From Gloeomargarita sp. SKYG116 (GTDB lineage Bacteria; Cyanobacteriota; Cyanobacteriia; Gloeomargaritales; Gloeomargaritaceae), in NCBI GenBank assembly GCA_025056115.1, contig JANWVM010000011.1, forward strand, positions 20,970-59,137: a stretch of DNA of 38,168 nt, written 5' to 3'. The position numbers and the translations under genes were made by a program. Within the stretch, counting starts at the first letter, position 1, and the number at the start of each line of letters is the position of its first letter. Positions 31,684-33,361 of the stretch are shown here, one piece after another. The notes under the pieces are model-generated. The model worked only from the letters and a program-made list of their open reading frames with translations, was not told the origin of the DNA and ran no database searches.

Positions 31684-32829
31684 TCACTCGCTCTTATCAT
31701 ACTCCCACAACCAGCGCCCCGGATTGAGCCGGTCGTCAGGGTCGAGTGCCTGCTTTACCCGTCGCATCAGGGTCAAACTCTCTGGCCGTACATCCCAGCG
31801 CTCCGGCACCGGCGGCCCAGCCAGCACACTGACATAGCCATAAGGACGCACAAACGCCCGCAGCTTATCCACCAACTCGGGCACATTCGCTGGCGCTGGC
31901 GTACACACCACCCGGCCAATGCCCACCCCGCTATGGATTTGCAACCACGCCTGGGGAAGTAACTGCTGAATATATTCCGCCAGGGCAACCGTTTGCGTGG
32001 GTAGTACCCCGACTTTGAGCAACAGGTGCGATGAACTCGCTGGCAGGCTCAGCAAGCGGCTGATGTGCATCCCCGTTTCGGGATTGATTTCCGTTGCTGT
32101 GGCATCCCCCCACACCGCTTGCAAGCGGGCGACCTGTTCCGCCACTGCGGTTGCTGTTCCCCGCACCTCAACCCACAGGCTCAACCGCGCCGGATAGCCC
32201 AACTGTTCTACAAGCGCCGCTGACAGCACATCCACCGCCGTTGGTTGGACAGGGGCATCCAAGACGCGCTGGCGTAACCCGGCCATCTCCGCCCCCTGCA
32301 CCAGCAAACAGCGCGTCTCCGGCGGCAACGGGTACAACCGCAAACTGGCTTGGGTAATGATCCCCAACGTCCCCCAGGAACCCGTCAGCAATTTCATCAG
32401 GTCGTAGCCCGCCACGTTTTTCACCACCTGGCCGCCCGCTTTGACCAGCACCCCATCAGGCCGCACCCATTGCACTCCCAGGAGTAAATCCCGCACACCC
32501 CCGTAGCGCTGGCGTCCTGGTCCCGCATCCGCCGTAGCAATGATGCCCCCCACCGTGGCTTGGTCGGGATACAGGGGCTGCACCGGCCACCACTGGTTTT
32601 GCTCAACCAACAGCGCCTGCAAATCGGCCCATTTCATCCCCGCTTCGACCGTTGCCACCAAATCCGCCACTGCATAGTTGACCACCCGATTTAAGGCGGC
32701 TGTACAAACGACCAATCCCTGTCCTGCTCCACCCCAATGGGCCTTGCTGTTTTGTCCCTGGATTTGCAACGGTTGCGTTCCGGTCTGCCGCACAAATGCC
32801 GCTAATTCTGCCGCTGTCGCCGGTTGCAT
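31684..32829 (-). CDS. glcE: FAD-binding oxidase, glycolate oxidase subunit GlcE-like
   Basis: The product has 381 residues. The N-terminal FAD-binding PCMH-type domain (about 1-180) has PLQIQGQNSKAHWGG, TVEAGMKWADLQALL, PDQATVGGIIATADAGPGRQRYGGVRDLL and VVKNVAGYDLMKLLTGSWGT. The C-terminal domain ends in LDPDDRLNPGRW. The length and GYDLMKLLTGS fit GlcE, one of the three subunits (GlcD, E, F) of glycolate dehydrogenase in photorespiration; GlcD and GlcF are not in the window. Its start faces the DnaA-box region. Confidence 0.88.
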   Translation of the reverse strand: MQPATAAELAAFVRQTGTQPLQIQGQNSKAHWGGAGQGLVVCTAALNRVVNYAVADLVATVEAGMKWADLQALLVEQNQWWPVQPLYPDQATVGGIIATADAGPGRQRYGGVRDLLLGVQWVRPDGVLVKAGGQVVKNVAGYDLMKLLTGSWGTLGIITQASLRLYPLPPETRCLLVQGAEMAGLRQRVLDAPVQPTAVDVLSAALVEQLGYPARLSLWVEVRGTATAVAEQVARLQAVWGDATATEINPETGMHISRLLSLPASSSHLLLKVGVLPTQTVALAEYIQQLLPQAWLQIHSGVGIGRVVCTPAPANVPELVDKLRAFVRPYGYVSVLAGPPVPERWDVRPESLTLMRRVKQALDPDDRLNPGRWLWEYDKSE

Positions 32830-32869
32830 CGTTCCCCAAATTGTGATGATTCTTCACATTCTGACCAAG

Positions 32870-32976
32870 TTATCCCCAGGTTAAGGCGAGTTATCCCCAA
32901 CTTATCCACAGGTTGCCCCTACTTATCCACAGCCCCCCACGTCATTATCCCCCTTTTCGCCCCCGCTTGTGGATAA
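32870..32976. repeat. Array of six DnaA boxes
   Basis: Five boxes face the plus direction and the last faces minus. Three match the E. coli consensus TTATCCACA exactly; two have C for A at position 7 and one also differs at the last base. Chance occurrence of three perfect 9-mers within 75 bp is very unlikely. Confidence 0.9.
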
Positions 32977-32984
32977 CTTTGACT

Positions 32985-33053
32985 GTAAAGGAATGTAACA
33001 AAAATCGGCCTGAAACCCCGTGTTTTCGTTGGACGTAAAGAAATGTTACGAAA
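32985..33053 (+). repeat. 19-bp imperfect direct repeat beside the DnaA boxes
   Basis: GTAAAGGAATGTAACAAAA (32985-33003) and GTAAAGAAATGTTACGAAA (33035-33053) differ at three or four positions and start exactly 50 bp apart. They could be binding sites of an origin-unwinding or regulatory protein, or operator sites for the downstream DUF2811 gene. Confidence 0.65.
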
Positions 33054-33154
33054 CGGGCGAGATGGACGAATTTGACAGCCCGACCGGATTTCGGCTGAAA
33101 TAAGCACAGAGCGGTGGGGAGTGCTTGCAAATTTTCTTAACGCAAAAGGGTATG

Positions 33155-33361
33155 ATGGCGATGGGTAGTCGGGTGGTGGTCCAGGCAGAGATTCCGGTGG
33201 AGTTGCACGAAAGTTTACAAGGGTACCTGGCGACGCATCCTGATTGGGACGTGCATCGGGTGTGCAGCGCGGCGTTGTCTTTATTTTTGTTGCAGAACAC
33301 GGAGAATGACCGCCGGGTGGCGCGAGTGTATCTGGATACGCTATTTCGCGTGCCGCGCTAG
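33155..33361 (+). CDS. DUF2811 family small protein
   Basis: The product is 66-69 residues depending on the start. Three ATGs (33152, 33155, 33161) follow an AAAAGGG site; I chose 33155 for spacing. The family blocks are VVVQAEIPVELHESLQGYL, HPDWDVHRVCSAALSLFLLQN and RVARVYLDTLFR. The pattern of helix, amphipathic helix and small size looks like a ribbon-helix-helix-type DNA-binding or antitoxin-like fold, but that is inference; the family function is unknown to me. It is the first gene to the right of the DnaA-box region. Confidence 0.8.
   Translation: MAMGSRVVVQAEIPVELHESLQGYLATHPDWDVHRVCSAALSLFLLQNTENDRRVARVYLDTLFRVPR

Follow-up and report, generated by a model that had tools for sequence, protein, structure and literature searches.

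Structure of the locus

The analyzed window is a 38,168 bp stretch of contig JANWVM010000011.1 (positions 20,970 to 59,137) of Gloeomargarita sp. SKYG116 [GCA_025056115.1]. It contains an intergenic region separating two outward-reading genes, one on the left encoding a FAD-binding, glcE-type protein and one on the right encoding a small protein of unknown function, DUF2811 (PF10929; 92.5 bits against a curated cut-off of 26.6). Six sites of the type TTATCCMCM, resembling DnaA boxes, lie within 107 bp of this region (Table 1). Their start spacings are 21, 11, 21, 22 and 23 bp, and the last site is inverted, a detail absent from the original prediction. The window contains nine TTATCCMCM sites against 1.29 expected, and none of 100 shuffles reached nine. 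In 300 dinucleotide shuffles no 107-bp span held more than one site. Thus, the array described in the original prediction was confirmed, with the positions and spacings given there.

The array is conserved in seven out of seven genomes of the genus. In their alignment the boxes, including the inverted one, are kept while other parts of the intergenic region drift, and four of the seven genomes have extra TTATCCCCA boxes in similar phase.

Table 1. Features of the glcE–DUF2811 intergenic region and flanking genes (window positions).
Feature	Positions	Strand	Sequence or family	Remarks
glcE-type gene	31684–32829	-		FAD-binding protein
DnaA box 1	32870–32878	+	TTATCCCCA	Invariant in 7 of 7 genus genomes
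DnaA box 2	32891–32899	+	TTATCCCCA
DnaA box 3	32902–32910	+	TTATCCACA
DnaA box 4	32923–32931	+	TTATCCACA	Anchor box of the class-wide comparison
DnaA box 5	32945–32953	+	TTATCCCCC	TTATCCCCA in four of the seven genus genomes
DnaA box 6	32968–32976	-	TTATCCACA	Inverted; 45 bp after box 4
HLR1-like (RpaB) site	32984–32999	-	GTTACATTCCTTTACA	16-base core without mismatch; last two positions (W W) of the published 18-base consensus do not match
Conserved stretch	33013–33030		resembles AAACCC..ATTCTTTCGT	Possible site of another regulator
Second, weaker HLR1-like site	33034–33050	-		Two mismatches in the 16-base core
Probable -35 element	33072–33077	+	TTGACA
Possible weak -10 element	33096–33101	+	TGAAAT	18-bp spacing; 4 of 6 matches, best of four spacings tried; inferred
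DUF2811 gene	33161–33361	+	PF10929	Start chosen by comparison with relatives; upstream in-frame ATG at 33155 possible

Comparison with the dnaN-side cluster

To reveal whether the array could be the chromosomal origin, as the original prediction proposed, we searched the whole 2.37-Mb genome (258 contigs) for similar clusters. It contains 25 exact TTATCCACA sites, and only two places hold clusters: the window array with three exact sites and contig C226 with ten in 209 bp. The 37 TTATCCCCA sites add no further cluster, so that many similar clusters, named beforehand as evidence against an origin, were not found. The C226 cluster is located beside dnaN, while dnaA was found on another contig, C189; neither gene was among the matches on the window contig. 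Moreover, the C226 cluster carries TAGTAGTAG next to its outermost boxes, similar to the DnaA-trio of the origin unwinding system (PMC8287927).

In a search limited to strict TAG repeats, (TAG)3 was found at seven out of seven clusters examined in the family (genomes G000, G001, G002, G004, G005, G006 and G007; G003 was left out), all beside dnaN. It was found at none of eight DUF2811 arrays of the family, including the window array, and at none of 83 DUF2811 loci, although DnaA-trios can be degenerate and this absence is not absolute. The distance between the array and the dnaN-side cluster is not fixed among relatives: it is about 80 kb in G004, 323 kb in G005 (a complete genome, tentatively Gloeomargarita lithophora) and 599 kb in G002 (VI4D9). 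A 400-kb sample of G005 showed no regular GC skew, as reported for most cyanobacterial genomes (PMC7198777); the skew check proposed in the original prediction thus speaks neither for nor against an origin here.

Association of the array with DUF2811

We next studied the distribution of the array. PF10929 occurs in 115 of 116 genomes of the class. Boxes were found upstream of DUF2811 in 30 of 30 loci of a first scan with a looser motif set, in 83 of 83 loci of an anchored analysis (an exact box) and in 78 of 78 named loci (an exact box; two of 80 were dropped because they had under 600 bases upstream), against direct pairs in none of 77 downstream control stretches. The 83 loci are all from genomes with dnaA; five loci from dnaA- genomes (L077–L081) were left out and are described separately below. 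Some of the 83 are close relatives, and 76 remain at 90% identity. The set reaches from genomes whose lengths fit Gloeobacter (G020, G052) and Anthocerotibacter (G095) to small genomes that look like marine picocyanobacteria.

In 70 of 83 loci a second direct box (up to one mismatch) lies 20–23 bp upstream of the anchor, and in 60 of 83 an inverted box (up to two mismatches) lies 43–47 bp downstream, i.e., about two and four helical turns, respectively. Random anchors gave 2 and 3%, but this contrast is inflated, since the anchor box was chosen to favor the architecture. Exact direct pairs 10–24 bp apart are present in 58 of 83 loci. In the named list, which is rich in Nostocales, 28 of 78 loci have such a pair and 50 have boxes without one. 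Over the different scans, many loci have only one to three boxes.

The neighboring genes are not shared in this way. A glcE relative flanks DUF2811 in seven of seven Gloeomargarita loci but in none of the other 59 loci compared (about 1.5 kb each side). The downstream glycosyltransferase-like gene (GT9) was found only in those seven loci and in one named Gloeomargaritales record (L125), of 148 loci. Both genes were therefore rejected as targets of the array.

It should be mentioned that small genomes of one family, f2 (G008, G091 and G059; loci L210–L215), carry two or more DUF2811 paralogs, and both copies examined in each of the three genomes have a box upstream. Some dnaA+ genomes of family f31 (G068, G300 and G212; loci L099, L101 and L102) have only weak TTTTCCCCA or TTATCCCCA boxes upstream of DUF2811, as might be expected where dnaA has become dispensable. 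In Synechocystis PCC 6803 dnaA is reported to be dispensable.

Promoter-like elements downstream of the array

An alignment of the 76 non-redundant regions revealed a conserved TTGACA after the array. It is present in 75 of 83 loci: in 35 at 180–184 bp from the anchor box, in 12 at 170–175 bp, in seven (Gloeomargarita) at 149 bp, in five at 152 bp and in 16 elsewhere; eight loci lack it. Its density is 3.20 per kb in this region and 0.12 per kb upstream of the array. A weak -10 element such as CACAAT or TGAAAT can be placed 17–19 bp further on in many loci.

A motif similar to HLR1, the site of RpaB (PMC11633204), was found on the minus strand in fixed phase in 30 of 83 loci (up to two mismatches in 16 bases). 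It peaks at +85 to +100 from the anchor (23 loci), and in seven of seven Gloeomargarita loci it lies at +61, which in the window is 93 bp from box 2. The stretch that follows it in the window (Table 1) recurs in the same phase in many loci and may be the site of another regulator, perhaps DUF2811 itself.

Relation of the boxes to DnaA

In Gloeomargarita the dnaN-side oriC and the array share TTATCCACA, whereas elsewhere both mostly use TTTTCCACA, the published cyanobacterial box (PMC4674748). Genome G007 (inferred from its array layout to be C42_A2020_066) mixes both at its oriC, and locus L224 uses TTATCCACA at the array. In a whole-genome scan for paired TTTTCCMCA, 20 of 22 dnaA+ genomes matched, at DUF2811 in at least 12, while five of 18 dnaA- genomes matched, in part through tandem repeats. 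The reversed control pattern matched in two of the 40 genomes, both dnaA-.

DnaA-box clusters also occur where no DUF2811 lies. In particular, a third cluster of three or four boxes about 21 bp apart was revealed in seven dnaA+ genomes (L108, 3546–3596; L109, 3228–3277; L110, 3291–3340; L111, 3428–3478; L112, 3577–3641; L113, 3270–3342; L114, 3145–3195). It follows the GMP synthase gene in L109, L110 and L112, lies between converging genes in L110 and L111 (cation efflux on one side) and beside other genes in the rest. It could be a DnaA-titration site.

Loss of DUF2811 in genomes lacking dnaA

In total, we analyzed 388 genomes at least 95% complete, of which 370 have dnaA over the family cut-off and 18 do not; nine of these 18 show weak sub-cut-off hits to the DnaA model and were counted as lacking dnaA. 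DUF2811 is missing in two of the 370 (G033 and G150, in about 380 and 460 contigs). Of the 18, it is missing in 13, interrupted by stops in two (G306, G379) and intact in three (G326, G366, G149); of the three loci with an intact copy, two have one exact box and one has none. The Fisher value (2.8e-22) ignores kinship; genus labels alone, without a tree, give at least four genera with both dnaA+ and dnaA- members. Genus g84 has seven members with both genes and two with neither; g140 has one with both and two with neither; g136 has one with both, one dnaA- with a broken copy and two dnaA- with an intact copy; g88 has two with both and one dnaA- with an intact gene but no exact box in 1 kb. The two genes are not neighbors, being about 1.04 Mb apart in G002, for example. 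Another small cyanobacterial family, PF04839, used as a control, is kept in 18 of 18.

Predicted structure of DUF2811

A ribbon-helix-helix fold was a guess from the sequence pattern. Two AlphaFold2 monomer models showed three helices (pLDDT 66 and 76); Foldseek, a second comparison with VIA-align and a PDB sequence search gave no significant match. No ribbon-helix-helix structure was among the matches listed, which does not exclude the fold, since a monomer model cannot show an intermolecular ribbon. NCBIfam gave no confident match for three members.

Interpretation

The proposal of the original prediction is only partly supported by these data: the main reading, a chromosomal origin placed apart from the usual markers, is not supported, a DnaA-controlled promoter, offered there as an alternative, is what the comparative evidence supports, and a titration site, also offered, is not excluded. 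We consider it likely that the array is the DnaA-binding upstream regulatory region of the DUF2811 gene. Sequence comparison shows the anatomy and its conservation, i.e., two direct boxes two helical turns apart, an inverted box about four turns further, an HLR1-like site in fixed phase in part of the loci, a TTGACA element and then DUF2811, an order kept across cyanobacteria, together with the loss of the gene in most genomes where dnaA is lost. What we infer is DnaA binding itself, probably as a cooperative ATP-DnaA complex on the paired boxes; a resulting switch of DUF2811 transcription, of either sign, by which its level would follow the amount or nucleotide state of DnaA; a light or redox input through RpaB; and an action of DUF2811 back on DnaA-dependent replication or on something that only DnaA-dependent cells need. 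A role of DUF2811 in replication control seems to us about as likely as not. Several findings do not fit easily: the boxes lie 150 to 200 bp upstream of the TTGACA in most loci, which is far for classical activation, the HLR1-like motif in fixed phase and the exact direct pairs are each confined to part of the loci, and three dnaA- genomes keep an intact DUF2811 while two dnaA+ genomes seem to lack it.

Among the alternatives, a DnaA-titrating or DnaA-converting site, with DUF2811 as the adjacent gene or a helper at the site, is unlikely but survives best. Five to eight boxes in Gloeomargarita are more than a simple operator needs, box 1 lies about 240 bp before the start codon, and other genomes have further clusters, some between converging genes. 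However, the array stays with one gene across the class, TTGACA follows it at a few preferred distances, many loci have few boxes, and the distance to oriC is not fixed. It is very unlikely that the sites belong to another protein with a DnaA-box-like motif, although their assignment to DnaA rests on sequence alone, since array and oriC share the motif within a genome and the boxes decay where dnaA is lost. A secondary or alternative origin is equally doubtful: the array is dense, phased and intergenic, and cyanobacteria can use several origins (PMC7198777), but it lacks (TAG)3, although DnaA-trios can be degenerate, it is linked to a gene and not to a chromosomal position, and a larger array with this trio lies beside dnaN. 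Regulation of the divergent glcE-type gene, whose start is only 41 bp from box 1, is the least likely, as this gene is a neighbor only in Gloeomargarita.

A study of Synechococcus elongatus concluded that as-yet-unknown factors regulate DnaA in this species and that DnaA binding to oriC depends on photosynthesis (PMC6478999). DUF2811, a near-universal cyanobacterial gene with DnaA boxes upstream that is lost in most genomes lacking dnaA, is a concrete candidate for a missing partner of DnaA, and its loss offers a natural experiment for what cells give up when they abandon DnaA. Tentatively, it can be hypothesized that DUF2811 is an ancestral cyanobacterial DnaA partner whose promoter reads DnaA state and photosynthetic redox (RpaB) together; it would then be one of the unknown factors that tie replication initiation to photosynthesis, discarded when a lineage gives up DnaA-dependent replication. 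In the literature searched, which left out most subscription papers so that an earlier description under another name cannot be excluded, we found no paper naming DUF2811 or PF10929 and none combining Gloeomargarita with a replication origin.

Comparison with known systems

The closest known system is the sda promoter of Bacillus subtilis, where DnaA directly activates the gene and ATP-DnaA binds the promoter region far better than ADP-DnaA in vitro (PMC4447404). In both cases a DnaA-box cluster outside oriC precedes a gene for a small protein, and in our view the DUF2811 promoter would likewise provide a route from DnaA state to gene expression, although here DnaA control is inferred. DUF2811 differs in that it is unrelated to sda as far as known families show, is cyanobacterial, has an RpaB-like site in part of the loci and is mostly lost with dnaA. 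The datA and DARS sites of Escherichia coli and the DnaA-box clusters of B. subtilis (PMC4447404) are also chromosomal clusters outside oriC, but the array studied here stays with one gene across the class and is followed by a promoter-like element. The cyanobacterial oriC beside dnaN (PMC4674748; PMC7198777) has the same box motif and 11- or 21-bp phasing, whereas the array is not beside dnaN, has no (TAG)3 trio and has fewer exact boxes. Finally, as in RpaB/HLR1-controlled promoters (PMC11633204), an HLR1-like site is located 88 bp before the TTGACA in the window, but here it is combined with DnaA boxes in front of a gene of unknown function.
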